A DNA stretch of 64,000 bases from Thermoplasmata archaeon (GTDB taxonomy: Archaea; Thermoplasmatota; Thermoplasmata; Lutacidiplasmatales; SKW197): contig JAVZCK010000002.1 of assembly GCA_038874435.1 (NCBI GenBank), forward strand, positions 62,001-126,000, in the 5' to 3' direction. Under the pieces are notes generated by a model that did not search any database, had not been told where the DNA came from, and was given only the letters and a program-made list of their open reading frames with translations. The translations under genes were made by a program, and so were the position numbers. Shown one piece after another: positions 6,819-47,220 of the stretch. Position 1 is the first letter of the stretch; each line of letters begins with the position of its first letter.

Positions 6819-7852
6819 GTAGAATAGTTTTTTCTTCAGCGGAAAAAAGCGCGGGAAAGACGACAGTTATAATCGGTTTTGGTGCCAGTATAAATAAAAG
6901 TTTTGGATACATGAAGCCACTTGGAGATCGATTGGTCTATCAGCGGAAGCGGTTGTGGGACTATGATGCGCACCTACTCTGCAAGATATTCAACATTCCA
7001 GATGAACCGGAAACGATGAGTATGGGATTTGAACATGCCAAATTGAGATACATGTATAACGAAGAGACCGCCGCAAAGAAACTGCGGGAGATGGCAGAAA
7101 GAATTGAAAAAGAACAAGGGAATGTATTCATAGAGACGGGTAAAGACCTTGCGTTTGGTAGTTCAGTGCATCTGGATGCAACCTCAGTTGCTAAATGTCT
7201 GGATGGGAAGATGGTGGTTGTGGTTAGAGGTGATTCCGATGCTGTGCTTGATACCATTGTTTTTATTAAAAAATATTTGAAGCTGGAGGAAGTCAAACTT
7301 GCTGGTGTCGTTGTAAATGATGTTAAGAATCCAGAAGATTTCATTGCCACCAACAAGAAGACAATTGATGATGCTGGTATATCCTTACTCGGTGTACTGC
7401 CACATGTAGAAAGTTTGGCTGAAACAACTGTGCGATACATTGCGGATAAGCTTTTTGCAAAAGTGCTTTCTGCTGAAGATTCCCTTGATAAGCCAGTAAA
7501 AAGGTATCTGATTGGGGCAATGTCAGCGAGCTCTGTTTATCAGCATCCTCTTATAAAAGAAAAATGCAACATGCTTATTACAAGTGGCGATAGAACTGAC
7601 ATGATACTTGCAGGGATAGAAAACAATGCTTCCTGCATCCTTCTTACGAATAACATTCTCCCACCATCTAACATAATCTCGCAAGCAAGCATGGCAAAGA
7701 TTCCACTTCTGCTCGTACCCTGGGATACTTATACTGTTGCAGTCAAGATAGACAGCATGGAACCGCTTTTGACAATGAATGACCAAACAAAAATTAACCA
7801 GATAAAGGAGCTTTGCTCAAAATACCTCAAAATCAGTGAAATTCTTTCCTAG
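6815..7852 (+). CDS. BioD-like/DRTGG-domain protein related to the N-terminal part of phosphotransacetylase
   Basis: 345 residues. The N-terminal P-loop-like domain has SSAEKSAGKTTVIIGF, as in BioD/cobyrinate-synthase-type NTPases. The C-terminal part contains ITSGDRTDMILAG, the DRTGG signature. This domain pair forms the regulatory N terminus of long phosphotransacetylases (COG0857), and it occurs alone in archaea that use ADP-forming synthetases. Here it is coupled by ATGA to such a synthetase, supporting a regulatory role in acyl-CoA metabolism (inference). Its stop codon shares the CTAG tetranucleotide with the stop of the opposing gene at 7849. Confidence 0.82.
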   Translation: MSRIVFSSAEKSAGKTTVIIGFGASINKSFGYMKPLGDRLVYQRKRLWDYDAHLLCKIFNIPDEPETMSMGFEHAKLRYMYNEETAAKKLREMAERIEKEQGNVFIETGKDLAFGSSVHLDATSVAKCLDGKMVVVVRGDSDAVLDTIVFIKKYLKLEEVKLAGVVVNDVKNPEDFIATNKKTIDDAGISLLGVLPHVESLAETTVRYIADKLFAKVLSAEDSLDKPVKRYLIGAMSASSVYQHPLIKEKCNMLITSGDRTDMILAGIENNASCILLTNNILPPSNIISQASMAKIPLLLVPWDTYTVAVKIDSMEPLLTMNDQTKINQIKELCSKYLKISEILS

Positions 7853-9942
7853 TCGGTTTTCAGCACTTCCAGTTCTCTTTCCAGAATTTTCGTTTCCTGC
7901 TCCTTTAGGGTGCTCTCTCCAAGCGATATTAAAAACACACCTTCTGTCTCAGCCACCATGTCCACAATTCTCCTTATGAACTTCACCACTGCATCAAAGC
8001 CATTCGCACTGACAAGGAATTCTATGCCATCCAGAGCAATCACGGTGTTTGGATGAGTATCCAGTTTCTCCTCGACAGCGTAAACTATTTTTTCCAGCGA
8101 ATGCCCAATTGTCTCTGCAGTACTTTCTTTTTCAGTCAGCCAGTATATTCCTGCCTTCTGCAGCTTCTCATGTTTCTCAGTAATTCGTTTCGGACTCACC
8201 CTGCTGAATATCAGCACATCATAGCCAGTTTCATGCATCGAAGAAGCAATCTGGAAAACGATGTTTGGCCTTGTTTCCTCAACCAGATAACTGTGTCCTT
8301 TCTGAACATTGTATTTCAATTTTCCTTTTGTGCCGTATTTGTCAGAATACTCTTTCATGGCTTCTTTGACAAGGTTCATGTCAATTCCCATGTTGCTGAT
8401 AGAGGCAAGGGCAAAGAGACGGTTTAAAATTATTGAAAGTTCATTCACTGAAAGGTTTATGCCTGCGATGTAGTTTACCACAGTTGGTTCAAGTGTAATT
8501 CCGTGTTCCTGGGCATATCTCTTAAGAATTTCCTTTTTAGTTTCAAAGTCGGGTTCAGAAATATTAACCATAAGTCCACCAGTAAAGCAGAGCAGAAGTT
8601 CTGTCTCAAGTTTAGGAATTTCTGTGGGTGAGATTCTACACCCAATAACCACTTGCTTTTCCTCTTTCACAAACCTGATGAGCACTCCTGCCAGTAATTT
8701 CTGGAGGTCTTCCTTTCCAGCGATCTCTTCAAAGTTATCTATGAAAATTGCCTCTGCTGTAAGTAATCTGGCGACCAATTTGCTGGGATTTTCTCTGTAT
8801 TTTTCAAAGACACCGAGGAGAATTGGAATGTTTGTGAATATAATTTTTTTTCCTGCGAGAGTCCCCTTTTCCAGATTTCCAGCAATTGCATTCAAAAGAT
8901 GGGTTTTTCCGCTTCCCTCTGGGCCATAAAGAACTACTGGATTGTAAAGAGTGCCAGGATACTTTGAGATGCCGTGGGCAACTGCATATGCAAACCTGTT
9001 TGACGCCCCAACTATGAAATTCACCATGCTGAACTTGTCAACAACTTTCCCAAATGTCTCCTCATCAGCACTGCATTTCACACATTGTCTATCTTTGTCA
9101 AGAGGACTCCCACATCTGGGACAGAAGGGCTCAGAACTTTCCTCTGCCTTGGCCTTGTGCTGGATAATGAGATTGTAAACTGCGGCCTCCTTCTTTTTTC
9201 GCTCTTCCTCCTCTCTCTGCTTGGTTATTATCTCCTCAAGTTCCTTGAGATGCTTGACCTCGAGTTCTATTGCCTCTGGGGTTCTTTCCTTCTCCATCTG
9301 CTGTTTCAAAGAGGAATAGAGCTTTTTGATTTCGTCTATGCCCTTCTTTTTGTCAATGGCATCCTTCAACCGTAAAACCATTTCTGGATACTTCTCATTT
9401 ATCTCTGGATGTTCCTGAGTAAACTTGGTAATTTCCTCGCTCAAACGGAGAAATTCTTCAATTTCAATTAGCTTTTTTTCAGCAGATTGTTTATCTTCGA
9501 CTGCGATTTTTTCTATCTCGCTTGTGTCAAATCCCTTGCTGCTCAGCACACGAATTCTAACATCCAACTCGCTTTCCTTTTTGATCTCACTTTTGCCTTC
9601 TATCAAACTCTGGAGTGCCTGCTTTACCTCTTCTGGCTTCACCTGCCCATGAAGTGTAATCAATGCCTTCGGATTCTTCGAAAGTTGCCAGATTTTTTTG
9701 GATGCCTTCTCACCAGCTTCCTTGGCACCTTGGGAAAAATGAAAAGTATCAGTTATCTGGCCAGATTCCAGGATGACAAAACCCGTTTCATTTTCACCTT
9801 TCCCTGGGAGCATAACTTCAATGTAGCCAGTGAATTTATGCTTTTTCAAGCCCAGTAGTAGATTTTTGAGTGCCTCCTCACTGCCAGCCACTTTTCGAAG
9901 CACAAGTCCCTGTGGAACTGTTGTCTCGTACATTCTACGCAT
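7849..9942 (-). CDS. DnaA-like AAA+ ATPase fused to zinc ribbon and C-terminal DUF835 domain
   Basis: 697-residue multidomain protein. Residues about 1-110 resemble an archaeal DUF2226-type sensor-like domain. Residues 115-265 are charged helices. A zinc ribbon CPRCGSPLDKDRQCVKC sits near 272-288. An AAA+ module follows that aligns with bacterial DnaA domain III: NFIVGASNRFAYAVAHG, LYNPVVLYG, Walker A GPEGSGKTH (near 339), Walker B AIFIDNFEEI (second acidic residue replaced by Asn) and a DnaA-like lid through residue 530. The DNA-binding domain IV of DnaA is absent. Instead, residues 540-690 match DUF835 (GHSYLVEE, VIALDGIEFLVSANGF). It starts at ATG 9942, 25 nt after a TATA box (leaderless). 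A signalling role is more likely than replication initiation (inference). Confidence 0.82.
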   Translation of the reverse strand: MRRMYETTVPQGLVLRKVAGSEEALKNLLLGLKKHKFTGYIEVMLPGKGENETGFVILESGQITDTFHFSQGAKEAGEKASKKIWQLSKNPKALITLHGQVKPEEVKQALQSLIEGKSEIKKESELDVRIRVLSSKGFDTSEIEKIAVEDKQSAEKKLIEIEEFLRLSEEITKFTQEHPEINEKYPEMVLRLKDAIDKKKGIDEIKKLYSSLKQQMEKERTPEAIELEVKHLKELEEIITKQREEEERKKKEAAVYNLIIQHKAKAEESSEPFCPRCGSPLDKDRQCVKCSADEETFGKVVDKFSMVNFIVGASNRFAYAVAHGISKYPGTLYNPVVLYGPEGSGKTHLLNAIAGNLEKGTLAGKKIIFTNIPILLGVFEKYRENPSKLVARLLTAEAIFIDNFEEIAGKEDLQKLLAGVLIRFVKEEKQVVIGCRISPTEIPKLETELLLCFTGGLMVNISEPDFETKKEILKRYAQEHGITLEPTVVNYIAGINLSVNELSIILNRLFALASISNMGIDMNLVKEAMKEYSDKYGTKGKLKYNVQKGHSYLVEETRPNIVFQIASSMHETGYDVLIFSRVSPKRITEKHEKLQKAGIYWLTEKESTAETIGHSLEKIVYAVEEKLDTHPNTVIALDGIEFLVSANGFDAVVKFIRRIVDMVAETEGVFLISLGESTLKEQETKILERELEVLKTD

Positions 9943-9959
9943 TGGCTGTATATGGCTGA

Positions 9960-9973
9960 GGTTATTTATACTC
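9960..9973 (-). promoter_or_regulatory. TATA element of the DnaA-like/DUF835 gene
   Basis: The minus strand reads GAGTATAAATAACC, centred 25 nt upstream of ATG 9942. This fits a leaderless transcript. It lies in the 108-bp divergent spacer shared with the TPR ATPase gene. Confidence 0.65.
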
Positions 9974-10013
9974 TTTTATTCTGCCAATGGAGTGTTGTTG
10001 CAGTGGCAAAAAA

Positions 10014-10025
10014 CCCTTAAATACG
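10014..10025 (+). promoter_or_regulatory. TATA element of the TPR ATPase gene
   Basis: CCCTTAAATACG, centred about 32 nt before ATG 10051, in the same divergent spacer as the promoter of the DnaA-like gene. Confidence 0.6.
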
Positions 10026-10050
10026 CTGAGCAATTCCACAGTCTGAAAAT

Positions 10051-12702
10051 ATGGAGATACGGCAATTTCCACAGGTGATGGTGGATAGAGAAAAAGAACT
10101 TGCGGTTTTAAAAAATGTGATGGAGATTTGCAGTGAGGGGAAAGGAGGTACTGTTTTAATCTGTGGAGATGTAGGTGTGGGAAAAACACGACTTGCAAGC
10201 GAATTTGCTGAGATGTGTCGGAGTGAGGGTTTTATAATTCTCTCTTCAATCTGTATCGGCAACAATGAGCCGGCCTATCTGCCCGTGCTTTCAGCCCTTC
10301 AAAACCATGCAAAAAAAGTGAGGGAGCAAGCAGAAATGTATGTCCCGATTGGACTTGCTGGCTTTCAAAGTATTGAAATTGAAGAACCGAACCCTGATAC
10401 GATGGCGAGGGAACGAACTAGAATGCTAGAACATCTCCTTCATCAGTTTATAGCAATTGCAAAAAAACAGCCAGTCATGTTATTGATTGATGACTTACAT
10501 CTTGCGGATTCTGCCACTCTTTCATTTCTCCATTACCTTGCAAGAAATATCAGAAATGAGAAAATAGTTGTTGTTGCCACCTATGTAGAGGAATTTGCTA
10601 ACGCTGAAACTGCATTTGCGAAAACAATTAGAAACATGAACATCGAACGGCTCTGCACTGTGCTGAAACTCGGGAACTTCAGCGAAAAAGAAGTCAGACA
10701 GATTGTGGCACAACTGGGGCTTGAACAGACAGAAGAGATTGCAAGCTATGTTTATGACAGGACGTCTGGAAACCCATTTTTTGTGGTTGAATTCCTGATA
10801 GCAATCCAGAATGCAGGGTTAAGAGAGATTGACGCAATCAAAAATATGGAACTGCCAGATACTGTCAAAGACCTTGTGAAGTTTCGATTTTCAAAACTCA
10901 CTGAGAAAACGAGAAAGGTTCTGACTTTTTGTGCAGTGCTAGGCAGGGTGTTCGAATATGAAGTGCTAAGAGAGGTTACTGGACTGAATGAGGAAGAATT
11001 ACTTGATGCAATTGATGAGCTAAGAACGCAAAATTTTCTGGTGGAGACGGAAGAGTTTGAGGAAGGGTATAAATTTGCAAGCAACACTGCCCATGAGGTG
11101 ATATACGATGGCATAACTGGTGCACGAAGAAGAATAATGCACCAGAAGACAGCGGAGGTGCTGGAAAAACTCCATGGCGATGACGAGCAGTTCTGGAGTG
11201 CAATGGCGAGGCATTACAGGGAAGGCGGAAACAGAAGTAAGTTCCTGGTGTATGCAGTGAAGGCAGGAAAAAGTGCAGCAAGAAAATTTGCGAATGTGGA
11301 AGCGGTGGAACTATTTGACAGTGTATTAGAAATGCTGGGGGAAACTGAGGTAGAGATCAAACAGAAGGTTGAAATTCTATGGGAACTGGCAGAAGTTCTT
11401 GAAGTAGAGGGAAGATATGATAAGGCATTGGAAATGCTGAGTAAAAGAATTGATTATACACTTCAAAGCAATCCAATTGAGGCAGGAAAATCGCATAGAA
11501 AAATGGCGGAGATTTACATTTTCAGAGGGGAGTATGAAAACGCATTGCGAGAAGTAGAAAGAGCGGAACAGTTGCTTACTGGCATATCCGATGCTGATTT
11601 TGAACTTGCGAGGGTATGGAGCACAAAGGGTTATGTGTATGAGCGAAAAGGAGAATACATAAAAGCAATTGAGTGCCAGAAACGAGCCCTTGAGGTCTTT
11701 GAGAAGAAAAACGCAGAAAAGGAGGCAGGAAATGCAAACCATAGAATTGGGGCATGTTACTGGTATACTGGTGAATATGAAAAAGCGATTGAGTTTTATC
11801 AGAAGGCATTGGAAATTCGGAAAAAAATCAACGATTTGAGAGGAATTGCTAGCACATACACTAACATTGGAGTAGTTCATTACAGCATGGGGAGTTATGA
11901 TGAGGCGATAGAATTCTATCTGAAGGGTGCTGAAATCCAGAGTAAGATGGGTGATGCCTGGGGTATGGCAATGGTGTACAATAATCTAGGATTGGTTTAT
12001 TCAAATAAAGGGGAGTATGAGAAGGCAACTGAATATTACCTCAAGAGTTTGGCTATAGAAGAGAAGATAGGGGATATGTGGGGTGTGGAATGGTCTTATC
12101 AGAATCTTGGTGTTCTATACAGGGATAGAGGAGACCATCAGAAAGCCCTTGAATTTTATTCTAAAAGTTTGGCAATCGGTGAAGAGATAGAGGACATGAG
12201 GGGCGTTGCCTGGTCATATGGAAACATTGGGAGCGAGTATCTCACGCTCGGAGAATTTGATGAAGCCCTCAAATTGCTGAAAAAGGGCATGGAGATTGCT
12301 GAACAAATAGGACAGCGAGATGTTGTCTGCATTGCCATGCTTACGATTGCCCTGGCTTACTGCAGGAAAGGTGAATTCGTACTCTGCGAAGAATATCTGG
12401 AGGAGGGAAAGGATATCGCAGAAGAGCTTGGTGCGAAGGATAAGATAAGCTATTACCACATCGTAAAAGGAGAACTTCATATCAAGAAAGGGGAGATAGA
12501 GGAAGGTGTTGCATCCCTTAGAAATGCGATTGCAATTTCAGAGGAGATGGGCGCATACGACATCAGTTACTACGAAACCCTGTTTGAAATTGGCAAATGG
12601 ACAAAGGACAGACAGATGATAGAAAAGGCACTGGCATTTTTTGAAAAGATAGGAAATGCTTCCCTGATCGAGAAGGCAAGGAAAGAATTGGAAGGTGCAT
12701 AG
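10051..12702 (+). CDS. STAND-type AAA ATPase with C-terminal TPR array
   Basis: 883 residues. The N-terminal NTPase has DREKELAVLKNV, Walker A GDVGVGKT (near residues 32-39) and Walker B MLLIDDLHLAD (near 145-155), followed by a winged-helix-like region (ELPDTVKDLVKFRFSKL), as in MalT- and cyclase-associated ATPases. From about residue 400 there are roughly eleven tetratricopeptide repeats of the form KGEYEKAIEFYQKALEI. Such proteins act as signal-transducing scaffolds that oligomerise on ligand or partner binding; no DNA-binding or catalytic output domain is seen, so the output must come from a partner. It is divergent from the DnaA-like/DUF835 gene, suggesting but not proving shared regulation. 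Confidence 0.85.
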   Translation: MEIRQFPQVMVDREKELAVLKNVMEICSEGKGGTVLICGDVGVGKTRLASEFAEMCRSEGFIILSSICIGNNEPAYLPVLSALQNHAKKVREQAEMYVPIGLAGFQSIEIEEPNPDTMARERTRMLEHLLHQFIAIAKKQPVMLLIDDLHLADSATLSFLHYLARNIRNEKIVVVATYVEEFANAETAFAKTIRNMNIERLCTVLKLGNFSEKEVRQIVAQLGLEQTEEIASYVYDRTSGNPFFVVEFLIAIQNAGLREIDAIKNMELPDTVKDLVKFRFSKLTEKTRKVLTFCAVLGRVFEYEVLREVTGLNEEELLDAIDELRTQNFLVETEEFEEGYKFASNTAHEVIYDGITGARRRIMHQKTAEVLEKLHGDDEQFWSAMARHYREGGNRSKFLVYAVKAGKSAARKFANVEAVELFDSVLEMLGETEVEIKQKVEILWELAEVLEVEGRYDKALEMLSKRIDYTLQSNPIEAGKSHRKMAEIYIFRGEYENALREVERAEQLLTGISDADFELARVWSTKGYVYERKGEYIKAIECQKRALEVFEKKNAEKEAGNANHRIGACYWYTGEYEKAIEFYQKALEIRKKINDLRGIASTYTNIGVVHYSMGSYDEAIEFYLKGAEIQSKMGDAWGMAMVYNNLGLVYSNKGEYEKATEYYLKSLAIEEKIGDMWGVEWSYQNLGVLYRDRGDHQKALEFYSKSLAIGEEIEDMRGVAWSYGNIGSEYLTLGEFDEALKLLKKGMEIAEQIGQRDVVCIAMLTIALAYCRKGEFVLCEEYLEEGKDIAEELGAKDKISYYHIVKGELHIKKGEIEEGVASLRNAIAISEEMGAYDISYYETLFEIGKWTKDRQMIEKALAFFEKIGNASLIEKARKELEGA

Positions 12703-12768
12703 ATTTCAGACACGAGAGAAAACTTCTCGAAATTTTTACAAAACCTCACAGTTCTCTATTTGTTGGAA

Positions 12769-12781
12769 AAGTATATATCAC
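12769..12781 (+). promoter_or_regulatory. TATA element of sepF
   Basis: AAGTATATATCAC centred near 12775. Transcription would begin near 12800, at ATG 12799 or just before the ribosome-binding GAGGTG (12801-12806) of ATG 12814. Confidence 0.65.
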
Positions 12782-12813
12782 ACTATTTTAATAACCTCAT
12801 GAGGTGCGTAGGT

Positions 12814-13203
12814 ATGACAGGACTGTTGAAGAAAAACCCACTCAAAGCGTTGAAAGGCGAAAGTGCAGTAGCAGAGCCAGGAGCTTACATAGATCTTGGA
12901 CAGATGACATTTGAAGATGAAGCAAGTGCACTCCAGCCAGCAAAAGCGGTCGTTCGTCTCGCAGACATAATCAGATACGAAGATGTGAATGCCATCCTAG
13001 GAGAGATATACAAAGGAAACATAATCATTCTAGATGTGACCTCAGTTGCAAATGACCAGCTTACAATGAAGCGCATCACTGTTGAGTTAAAGAATGCAGT
13101 TAAGGAGACCGGTGGAGACATTGCAGGCGTTTCAAAGAATCTTATAATGATAACGCCTGGAGGAATAAAAATAGACCGCCAGAAGATGAAGCTTGGGTTT
13201 TGA
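12814..13203 (+). CDS. sepF: Archaeal SepF, FtsZ membrane anchor
   Basis: Cell-division protein that tethers FtsZ filaments to the membrane. The N terminus MTGLLKKNPLKAL can form the amphipathic targeting helix. After a short linker comes the DUF552 core: AKAVVRLADIIRYEDVNAIL, GNIIILDVTSV, RITVELKNAVKETGGDIAGV and NLIMITPGGIKI. A length of 129 residues fits archaeal SepF. ATG 12814 is chosen because GAGGTG lies 7 nt upstream and the membrane helix then starts at Met1; ATG 12799, 24 nt after the TATA box, would give a leaderless form five residues longer. The cognate ftsZ lies in this window at 46.2-47.2 kb. Confidence 0.9.
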   Translation: MTGLLKKNPLKALKGESAVAEPGAYIDLGQMTFEDEASALQPAKAVVRLADIIRYEDVNAILGEIYKGNIIILDVTSVANDQLTMKRITVELKNAVKETGGDIAGVSKNLIMITPGGIKIDRQKMKLGF

Positions 13204-26023: not shown

Positions 26024-26063
26024 AAGAAACCAATTATGGAAACTAGAACAAGGTGATTTGATG

Positions 26064-26765
26064 ATGAATGGCTATGTTCATACCTATGTCAAAGGTCTAG
26101 ATGAGCGAATTGAAGGAGGGATTCCTAAAGGACACATTGTGCTCATCTGTGGACCTGCTGGAAGCATGAAATCTTCTTTTACATTCAACATAATGTACAA
26201 CTATGTTAGAGAGAGAAAAGGAAAAGCCCTCTACCTCACGCTAGAACAGAGCAGGGAGAGTTTGATAAAGCAGATGAAAAAACTCAACATGGACCCTGAC
26301 AAATTCAAGGAGGATATTGCAATTCTAGACATTGCATGGCTTAGAAAGGAACTTGAGGAATCAGGTGAGAAATCAATTAATTGGTTTGATTCTGTCCAGA
26401 AACAACTTGTGAGTTATAGAGAGTTTATTGACTATGACCTGCTTGGTTTTGACTCATTGGATGCACTCTACACACTTTCATCAATAGACAATCCCAGAAG
26501 TGCACTTTTCTTCTTCTTTGAAAAACTTCGCAACATGAAGGTTACAGCGTTGATAATCTCAGAGATGAGCCCAGAGCGGTTGCACTTTGGAAAGTATGGT
26601 GTGGAACCCTTCCTTGCAGACGGAATAATTCATCTGGACCTTGAAAGAATTGGAAAAACTGTGGGAAGGTTCATAAGCATCGTAAAGATGCGAGAGGTCA
26701 AGCATCCTACTGACTACTTCCCTCTCCTCGTAGACAGCGAGGGCTTCAAGATTGTGACAAGGTAA
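26064..26765 (+). CDS. RecA/KaiC-superfamily ATPase (RAD55-like)
   Basis: Single-domain RecA-like ATPase of 233 residues. VKGLDERIEGGIPKGHIVLI leads into Walker A GPAGSMKSS (near residues 28-36), a GPAGxMKS-type P-loop seen in archaeal KaiC-like proteins. LTLEQSRESLIKQM follows, then the Walker B region YDLLGFDSLDALY. No zinc ribbon or second domain is seen. ATG 26064 is preferred because GGTGAT lies 6 nt before it; ATG 26061 is possible. Such single-domain paralogues have regulatory or recombination-accessory roles; the specific role is unknown. It is 4 bp upstream of mptE in an apparent operon. Confidence 0.83.
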   Translation: MNGYVHTYVKGLDERIEGGIPKGHIVLICGPAGSMKSSFTFNIMYNYVRERKGKALYLTLEQSRESLIKQMKKLNMDPDKFKEDIAILDIAWLRKELEESGEKSINWFDSVQKQLVSYREFIDYDLLGFDSLDALYTLSSIDNPRSALFFFFEKLRNMKVTALIISEMSPERLHFGKYGVEPFLADGIIHLDLERIGKTVGRFISIVKMREVKHPTDYFPLLVDSEGFKIVTR

Positions 26766-45295: not shown

Positions 45296-46144
45296 TCAGT
45301 GTATCTCCTTCACCGCCAGAATTTCCGTGCGGAAGCCAGAGAAGGAGGAAAGCAACACCTTCTCCTTTGCGAATGCACCTGTCTCCTCAATGTATTTTGC
45401 AAAATGTTCAATCCTGAAGGCGTCTTTCTCAGGCACCTTCACTGAAACGAAGGCAGCTCTTGCAGGGGTTGCTTCAATGTCGTTCAGTGCCTGGAGCAAA
45501 CTTGTGCCCATCCCGAGGTCTGCTCTTCCCCGGACTGGGTGTTTCTTCAACACCTCTATGCTCTTTCTGGTGAAGCCATTTACCACATGCTCAACTAGTG
45601 CATCAGCCATCTGGTTGGCTATCTTCACAACTTTCATCAACTTTTTTTCGTGAGAAAGATCGGCAATTAATTGATTATCAATGAGCCAGATGTTGCCGTC
45701 TCCCAGATACTCAATTGCTTTTTTCAAGTCGAAGTTACCTTCAAAGCAAAATGGTGCATAACCAATTACCAGCACAAGTTTATGCTCGTAAATTTCCTTC
45801 AATGCCTTTGCAATTCCCATCCCAGTTTTACCTCGAAGAGCGGTGATTACCACTATTATGTCTGGCTCGCCCACTGCCTCAGTAATCTTTTTGTAGTTGG
45901 CAATGCAAAGATGGTAAACATCCTGGCTTGTGTATTCCTCCAGGTTTCTCTCTGAAAGGTAGATTCGGTGCTGGGCTGCAGCACTAAGCAGACTTCCGCC
46001 GAGACAGAGGTTGATTGCCACTTTCTTGATTCTTGGCGTTTCTATTTTTATTTCCCTGAGCGTGTTGATGCCGGCGCCGCCGCAACCCACCACACAGATG
46101 TCAATCGGGGCAGAGCAATCATCAAACATCTTTATTACATTCAT
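45296..46144 (-). CDS. Divergent FtsZ-like protein lacking the T7 loop
   Basis: 282 residues, directly downstream of ftsZ. The first nucleotide-binding loop is kept (ICVVGCGGAGINTLRE, near residues 13-28). The tubulin signature is degraded from GGGTGTG to RGKTGMG (near residue 102), within a segment that still aligns to FtsZ (IIVVITALRGKTGMGIA versus IAFVIAGMGGGTGTGAA). The catalytic T7 loop (NxDxxD; NIDYAD in the neighbour) is absent. It may bind nucleotide but should not support canonical filament-coupled GTP hydrolysis; a regulator or partner of FtsZ is inferred. ATG 46144 is chosen because GGGGGTGGGAC precedes it, mirroring the ftsZ leader GGGGTGGGACC; ATG 46162 is possible. Confidence 0.75.
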   Translation of the reverse strand: MNVIKMFDDCSAPIDICVVGCGGAGINTLREIKIETPRIKKVAINLCLGGSLLSAAAQHRIYLSERNLEEYTSQDVYHLCIANYKKITEAVGEPDIIVVITALRGKTGMGIAKALKEIYEHKLVLVIGYAPFCFEGNFDLKKAIEYLGDGNIWLIDNQLIADLSHEKKLMKVVKIANQMADALVEHVVNGFTRKSIEVLKKHPVRGRADLGMGTSLLQALNDIEATPARAAFVSVKVPEKDAFRIEHFAKYIEETGAFAKEKVLLSSFSGFRTEILAVKEIH

Positions 46145-46170
46145 AGTCCCACCCCCGTTCATTTGACCAC

Positions 46171-47220
46171 CTACCTTGTAAGCTCTATTGTTCCAGGCAC
46201 AATCTCGTATATCCCTTCAGGTTCCAGTGGCACCAGTGATTTGACTCCAACTGCAATTGCCATCACTCTTATGCTACCTTCGAACTCTGGAAGAATCCTT
46301 GCACCGAAAATTATGTTTGCATCTTCACTAAATTGGGAAGCAATTCCTTCAATCACTGCATTGGCATTTCTCAGCGTAAGCTTGGTTCCACCAGTAATGT
46401 GAATTATTGCTGCTCTTGCACCTGTGTAATCCACATCCAGAAATGGATTGTTGAGGGCATCCTCTACAATTTTCTCTGGCTCCTCCTCAGAACCCTCGCC
46501 GTAAAGCAGGGTACTCATGTTTCCATCTGCATACGAAAAAATGGTCCGCATGTCTGCGTAATCAATGTTGATCAACGAGGGTAGCGTGAGTGTGTCAGTA
46601 ACGCCTGAAATCATTTCTGCAATCACCTGGTCCATCACACCGAAGGCATGCTCAAGCGGGAGCGTGGGTGCAATGTCCAGAAGCTTGTTGTTGTCCAGCA
46701 CGATCAGACAGTCCGAAAACCTCCGCAGGGCAGCGATTCCCTGTCTGGCTGTATGAATCCGCCCTTTTTCATACCTGAATGGAGATGTCGCTACAGAAAT
46801 CACAATCGCTCCTGCCTCCTTTGCAATCTCTGCCACAACAGGGGCTGCACCTGTGCCTGTTCCACCACCCATACCTGCAATTACGAATGCAATCTGCGTG
46901 CCTCTGAATACGGTCTCAAGTTCTCTCCTGGAAAGCTCGGCGGCATGTGCACCTATCTCAGGTAAGCCCCCAGCACCATTTCCCCTTGTGAGGTGGCCTC
47001 CCAGTAAAATCTTTTTCTTTGCATGGATTGATTTGAGATGGACATAGTCCGTGTTGATTGCGATGGAATCAATGTTCTTTACTCCGAGCTTCTGGAGGTG
47101 GTGTAAACTGTTGCATCCAGCACCGCCAACCCCAACAACTTTTATGTTCAGCTCTTGCTTTGGCAGGGGATACTCTTTTTCGAATTCTTCCGCATCTTTT
47201 ATTATGGAATTTATTGTCAT
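46171..47220 (-). CDS. ftsZ: Cell division GTPase FtsZ
   Basis: Polymerising tubulin-family GTPase of the division ring. The T1 loop VVGVGGAGCNSL lies near residue 29, the tubulin signature AGMGGGTGTGAAP near 112-124, and the T7 loop NIDYADMRTIF near 215. The C-terminal domain is complete (IIHITGGTKLTL, ANIIFGARI), but no long C-terminal tail is present: the protein ends soon after the globular domain (VPGTIELTR). All catalytic residues are intact. The preceding gene is an RHH regulator; the following one is the degenerate FtsZ paralogue, 26 bp downstream. A possible operator lies at 47240-47251, just upstream of the start. Confidence 0.96.
   Translation of the reverse strand: MTINSIIKDAEEFEKEYPLPKQELNIKVVGVGGAGCNSLHHLQKLGVKNIDSIAINTDYVHLKSIHAKKKILLGGHLTRGNGAGGLPEIGAHAAELSRRELETVFRGTQIAFVIAGMGGGTGTGAAPVVAEIAKEAGAIVISVATSPFRYEKGRIHTARQGIAALRRFSDCLIVLDNNKLLDIAPTLPLEHAFGVMDQVIAEMISGVTDTLTLPSLINIDYADMRTIFSYADGNMSTLLYGEGSEEEPEKIVEDALNNPFLDVDYTGARAAIIHITGGTKLTLRNANAVIEGIASQFSEDANIIFGARILPEFEGSIRVMAIAVGVKSLVPLEPEGIYEIVPGTIELTR

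Follow-up and report, generated by a model that had tools for sequence, protein, structure and literature searches.

The window, by which we mean the whole 64,000-nucleotide stretch of a Thermoplasmata genome analysed here, carries the gene for a multi-domain protein in which the AAA+ domain of bacterial DnaA (domain III) is joined to DUF835 and lacks domain IV. DnaA is customarily regarded as the mark of replication in bacteria, as Orc1/Cdc6 is in archaea. The protein belongs to a large Thermoplasmatota family that is apparently undescribed, no description of an archaeal DnaA-AAA+ family having been found in the open-licence literature. The bacterial-type domain III without domain IV, proposed in a first-pass annotation of this DNA, is confirmed by profile scores and by fold. 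In the window lineage the ATPase looks catalytically dead, judging from its motifs, yet it is still maintained by selection.

Domain organization of the window protein

From the N to the C terminus, the protein consists of an N-terminal domain, a helical region, a zinc ribbon, the DnaA AAA+ domain and DUF835 (Table 1). The open reading frame occupies the span first annotated, on the minus strand, but positions 7849-7851 of the span are the stop codon and the start is at Met4, whose codon (9931-9933) is the start common to the gene and its copy in the sister genome. A TATA-like sequence, TATAAATAA, is found about 25 bases ahead of the start codon (window 9901-10080, minus strand) and no obvious Shine-Dalgarno sequence is seen there, which suggests that the transcript may be leaderless, of the archaeal kind.

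The N-terminal domain is conserved across the fusion family; it matches no Pfam family, and a fold search of the PDB (Foldseek) gave no significant match (best E 0.029). A likeness by eye to PATAN/DUF2226-type domains was abandoned on these grounds and the domain is left without a name. The helical region is the least conserved part of the protein (77% identity to the sister copy), and the two CxxC pairs of the zinc ribbon are present in 30 of 54 fusion-family members. At the C terminus, DUF835 (PF05763) is matched with 91.1 bits over residues 561-691 (Pfam, cut-off 33.1), and no P-loop of the form GxxxxGK[ST] was found in residues 541-697; the KaiC profile matches two fusion-family members weakly. 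DUF835 is an inactivated-KaiC domain that serves as the output domain of archaeal response regulators (PMC5847659). The window protein has this C-terminal domain in common with the archaeal DUF835 proteins but, unlike the response regulators, joins it to a DnaA AAA+ domain and not to REC or PAS.

Table 1. Features of the DnaA-fusion gene and its product, with their positions in the window.
Feature	Window position	Strand	Remark
Whole gene, 697 aa	7849..9942	-	Full-length relatives exist
N-terminal alpha/beta domain, residues 1-124	9571..9942	-	AF2 pLDDT 91, pTM 0.84
Helical coiled-coil-rich region, residues 125-266	9145..9570	-	AF2 secondary structure
Zinc-ribbon-like CPRC...CVKC, residues 270-295	9058..9135	-	CxxC at 274 and 287
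DnaA-type AAA+ domain (DnaA domain III), residues 303-535	8338..9036	-	Pfam 99.7 bits; TM 0.93 to 8bv3
Walker A GPEGSGKTH, residues 340-348, intact	8899..8925	-	
Walker B AIFIDNFEEI, residues 398-407; second Asp replaced by Asn403	8722..8751	-	
Sensor 1 zone GCRIS; E. coli D269 position is Arg436	8629..8643	-	
Box VII zone LLLCFTGGL; arginine finger (E. coli R285) is Cys452	8572..8598	-	
Sensor 2 zone LSVNELS; E. coli R334 is Asn500	8434..8454	-	
DUF835 (inactivated-KaiC type), residues 545-697	7852..8310	-	Pfam 91 bits

Identity of the AAA+ domain

In the Pfam search, the Bac_DnaA profile (PF00308) matches residues 303-459 with 99.7 bits, and the full-length DnaA profile TIGR00362 matches residues 206-534 with 161 bits, under its equivalog cut-off of 344 bits. 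The score for IstB (PF01695) is 17.5 bits against a gathering cut-off of 24.1, that for Hda (TIGR03420) is 65.8 bits against an equivalog cut-off of 194.8, and no Orc1/Cdc6 profile of Pfam or NCBIfam, TIGR02928 included, matches the protein. Neither of the outcomes that the first-pass annotation named as refuting, a better score for Orc1/Cdc6 or DnaC/IstB than for DnaA and the lack of a DUF835 match at the C terminus, was therefore observed. By sequence, B. subtilis DnaA ranks first in the PDB (110 bits), and the AlphaFold model superposes on domain III of the same protein (8bv3) with a TM score of 0.93 over the target and 1.7 Å rmsd. The model of the whole protein has a mean pLDDT of 87 and a pTM of 0.44, a low value that makes the relative placement of the domains unreliable. 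The DnaA N-terminal domain I (PF11638) has no match in the window protein, and domain IV (PF08299) is absent from it and from all 54 family members scanned, the same library having detected PF08299 in the positive controls, E. coli DnaA and one bacterial contaminant.

With bacterial DnaA the domain thus named shares the AAA+ fold, the N-linker region (NFIVGASNRF), Walker A and the DnaA-specific boxes, and most archaeal relatives have the catalytic residues complete. The archaeal forms differ from DnaA in the missing PF08299 (and, in the window protein, PF11638), in the other domains fused to them and in that their carriers own Orc1/Cdc6, and the window copy differs further in the loss of its catalytic residues. 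A precedent for DnaA domain III functioning without domain IV is Hda, the regulatory inactivator of DnaA. Hda, however, is bacterial, short and clamp-binding, the domains fused in the window protein are unrelated to it, and the window protein scores 66 bits with TIGR03420 versus 161 with DnaA. The IstB/DnaC helicase loaders form a neighbouring AAA+ clade to which the window protein scores far lower. The "DnaA-like" AAA+ ATPases of SSV archaeal viruses (arCOG07960; PMC4158269) share the label and an archaeal setting but are viral proteins; a search of a phage collection with a family member (E 1e-10) gave no archaeal virus among the 30 of 38 matches listed.

ATPase motifs and selection

The asparagine noted at first in place of the second acidic residue of Walker B is seen in the motif alignment and is part of a wider motif loss: of the DnaA ATPase motif set the window protein retains Walker A and, within Walker B, the first Asp only, Arg448 being likewise lost. 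The sister copy, at 84% identity and with a full-length frame, has nearly the same substitutions. In both proteins Walker A is kept, Walker B reads Asp-Asn, the sensor 1 Asp is replaced by Arg or Lys, R281 by Glu, the arginine finger by Cys and the sensor 2 residue by Asn. Because the residues for hydrolysis and for contact between subunits have been lost, and Walker A with the leading Asp of Walker B is what remains, the window domain is probably a pseudo-ATPase. Between the two copies dN is 0.086 for the whole protein and 0.081 for its AAA part; dS is saturated over the whole (1.88) and allows no estimate for the AAA part. A low dN with saturated synonymous sites indicates that the altered protein is still under strong constraint.

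Among relatives, 77 distinct fusion sequences were compared: 71 keep the Walker A Lys, the Walker B Asp-Asp, the arginine finger and the sensor 2 Arg together, and two of the remaining six rows are incomplete. The same residues are present in all 18 bacterial rows. In three short forms (L075-L077) sensor 1, the finger and sensor 2 have been altered independently. At the positions that contact single-stranded DNA in DnaA structures, the residues drift in the fusions and are mostly retained in the forms from other classes.

Distribution and architectures

A search of the phylum with PF00308 at E 1e-12 found a DnaA-type AAA+ domain in 59 of 390 Thermoplasmatota genomes from 22 family-level groups, one of these genomes (G632) being counted for a contaminating bacterial gene that includes domains I and IV. 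The same search gave no match in 295 genomes of the phylum of a Methanophagales genome and two in 29 genomes of Altiarchaeota, the phylum of an Altiarchaeales genome; domain IV is also absent from both Altiarchaeota genes. In the window genome the fusion gene is the sole PF00308 match, and within the order only this genome and its sister (MAG SKW197, L079) have a strong one, the others being weak. At the level of the class, matches to some stretch of the protein occur in 202 of 400 genomes, a count that takes in genomes having DUF835 alone, and many of the matches are full-length at 25-34% identity. The named relatives are Thermoplasmata and Methanomassiliicoccales MAGs. Orc1/Cdc6 scores over the cut-off in all 14 carrier genomes checked, so that the DnaA-type protein is no replacement for the initiator; the window genome has two such genes, on contigs C1 and C7, away from the fusion gene.

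All 54 aligned Thermoplasmatota fusions contain both Bac_DnaA and DUF835; since they were gathered with a DUF835 query, this count describes co-occurrence and not the share of fusions among archaeal DnaA-type genes. In other classes the AAA+ domain is found in long proteins (L070, L072) that combine coiled coils with zinc ribbons at the C terminus, again with DUF835 (L068, L189), in a form of about 420 amino acids (L073), and after a signal-like segment, an FN3-like region and a hydrophobic helix (L074, L078, L201); a KaiC-like gene adjoins the DnaA AAA+ gene in L074 and L201. Genomes of two further families (f49 and f57), which we guess from the form of the protein to be marine-type, encode a degenerate DnaA-type AAA+ domain in proteins of 620-840 amino acids and of different design (L219, L220, L221). 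The chromosome of MAG bin396 encodes a 459-amino-acid variant (L104:5080-6456) with the N-terminal domain, coil, zinc ribbon and DUF835, next to the same convergent zinc-ribbon gene as the fusions. In this variant the DnaA block was lost or never gained; the block therefore behaves as a cassette.

Gene neighbourhood

In relatives, with gene names assigned by eye and not all genes present in every locus, the order is gyrB (minus), thiC (plus), in some a zinc-ribbon gene (minus), the DnaA fusion (plus) and a zinc-ribbon/coiled-coil gene (minus), followed farther on by DUF355, an OGG-type glycosylase and an Lhr-like helicase (L094, L102, L108, L112, L115, L117, L121, L126, L139 and L142, also L212 and L215). 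By the same naming, gyrB lies upstream of the fusion in 18 of the 38 loci that extend over three or more upstream genes, and gyrA adjoins gyrB in several loci where it is visible. Of 53 loci, 38 have the convergent zinc-ribbon/coiled-coil gene next after the fusion, a figure that may mix related families because its family is a single-linkage cluster. In two genomes of another class (L205, L208) a RadB-like gene, named by eye, directly follows the DnaA-type gene.

The gyrase-thiC context is absent around the window gene, whose neighbours are a DRTGG/AAA_26 protein, a CoA ligase, an AAA_16-TPR protein and SepF (12760-13203). Elsewhere in the window are two adjoining FtsZ/tubulin-like genes, recognized by eye (45299-47220), and a KaiC-like ATPase gene (26058-26762) related to the KaiC-like genes near the DnaA fusions of other genomes.

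Origin of the family

One of the domains from another class (L072) has 63% identity with the DnaA of Priestia and 67% with that of C. difficile. The tree is unrooted and holds 15-19 bacterial rows, mostly from Bacillota, Actinomycetota and Pseudomonadota. With all rows included, the archaeal group is not cleanly recovered, as long branches (window 2.72, L075/L077) blur it, and a tree constrained to hold the bacteria together is not rejected (p-AU 0.395); for the window row, with a branch of 2.7, the AAA domain alone is insufficient for placement. When the long rows are removed, the archaeal domains fall on one side of a branch (support 95/88) and the class fusions form a branch of their own (94/98), a clean split that hangs on the choice of rows removed. 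A grouping of the other-class forms with the DnaA of Bacillota and Actinomycetota, as a later second transfer would give, was not favoured and not rejected (p-AU 0.09).

To our knowledge DnaA is universal in bacteria, and together with the single, patchy archaeal distribution this favours transfer from bacteria; a single transfer into Thermoplasmatota is the most likely history. An ancient common origin with loss in other archaea is the less likely alternative. Of the capture of a bacterial initiator ATPase put forward at first, transfer from bacteria thus remains the likeliest account, but the event is not particular to one protein, as the family is phylum-wide.

Possible function of the family and alternative readings

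Two readings of the family have next to no probability. By one of them, the AAA+ domain belongs with archaeal Orc1/Cdc6, DnaC or IstB and matches DnaA profiles fortuitously; PF00308 does match other ATPases of the same order weakly (23-43 bits), but the scores given above (DnaA 99.7 and IstB 17.5 bits, no Orc1), the first place of DnaA in the PDB by both sequence and fold, and relatives that reach 235 bits and 63% identity with Bacillota DnaA rule out such an identity. By the other, the sequences come from bacteria that contaminate archaeal metagenome bins, as is the case for one complete bacterial DnaA (L168, G632:C23), which has both domain I and domain IV. For the fusion family contamination is ruled out: DUF835 and other archaeal-type domains stand in a single frame with the AAA+ domain, the gene order is common to many independent assemblies, including the chromosome-level L108 and L117, and the window gene lies on a 180 kb contig with synteny to the sister.

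As to function, we rather favour the reading, drawn from sequence, that the family members are ATP-controlled assembly modules in signalling or scaffold proteins and that the window copy is a pseudo-ATPase among them. A bacterial-type DnaA domain III, without domain IV, would have entered the Thermoplasmatota lineage and turned into a reusable cassette of archaeal multi-domain proteins, most commonly placed between a coiled coil with zinc ribbon and the inactivated KaiC of DUF835. In most members, ATP binding would let the subunits stack through the arginine finger, as in DnaA domain III, hydrolysis would reverse the stacking, and the state of assembly may be relayed to the N-terminal and DUF835 domains. 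In the window lineage the domain would be a nucleotide-binding or purely structural pseudo-ATPase that still supplies an assembly or interaction surface. The nucleotide switch of the first-pass annotation accordingly suits most relatives, with their intact motifs (71/77), but suits the window copy least, because its hydrolytic and inter-subunit machinery is almost wholly lost. The signalling role that went with it is an inference by analogy with DUF835 as an output domain, and the gyrA/gyrB or RadB-like neighbours of relatives point as much to work on DNA.

Such work on DNA, in which the archaeal proteins would regulate gyrase, recombination or replication while Orc1/Cdc6 stays the initiator, and might use the initiator-specific motif of DnaA to bind DNA in single-stranded or supercoiled form, is unlikely but is the chief alternative. 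Besides the gyrase genes upstream and the RadB-like genes, it draws on the other-class forms, in which the positions of E. coli V211 and K243 are occupied by residues like those of DnaA; the DUF835 fusions, on the other hand, drift there, V211 being polar in many, and in the window protein V211 is replaced by Glu and R245 by Asp, although K243 keeps its Lys. The lack of gyrase context at the window locus, the archaeal forms scanned, in none of which domain IV was found, and one form that appears to be membrane-anchored also speak against it. It is a good deal less probable that, in a real family, the window copy is a decaying gene whose DnaA domain has ceased to function and is being discarded. 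In keeping with decay are the motif losses (Asp2 of Walker B, both sensors, the arginine finger), the long branch, the degenerate short forms (L075-L077) and marine-type genomes, and L104 wholly without the DnaA domain. Against it stand the full-length sister copy with nearly the same changes at 84% identity, and a dN that stays low, in the AAA part as well, at saturation of the synonymous sites. Apart from the assembly-module reading preferred here, we entertain as a long shot that a Thermoplasmatota ancestor took up a bacterial origin region (dnaA with gyrB-gyrA) in one event, that gyrase kept its job, and that the DnaA AAA+ domain, released from recognizing origins, founded a family which would still govern the topology of the chromosome or the state of the cell cycle by assembling, driven by ATP, with partners of the KaiC type.

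Significance

A phylum-wide archaeal family built on the DnaA ATPase without its origin-binding domain shows this engine to be separable from initiation and reusable. The family also offers natural intact and dead versions of the domain, and with them a means to test the role of ATP in DnaA-type assembly. For annotation, a caution follows that archaeal PF00308 hits are not to be equated with initiators. The transfer of bacterial gyrase into Thermoplasmatota archaea is already known (PMC9348778; PMC4153887), and the gyrase neighbourhood of the fusion genes provides a testable link between that event and the history of the family.
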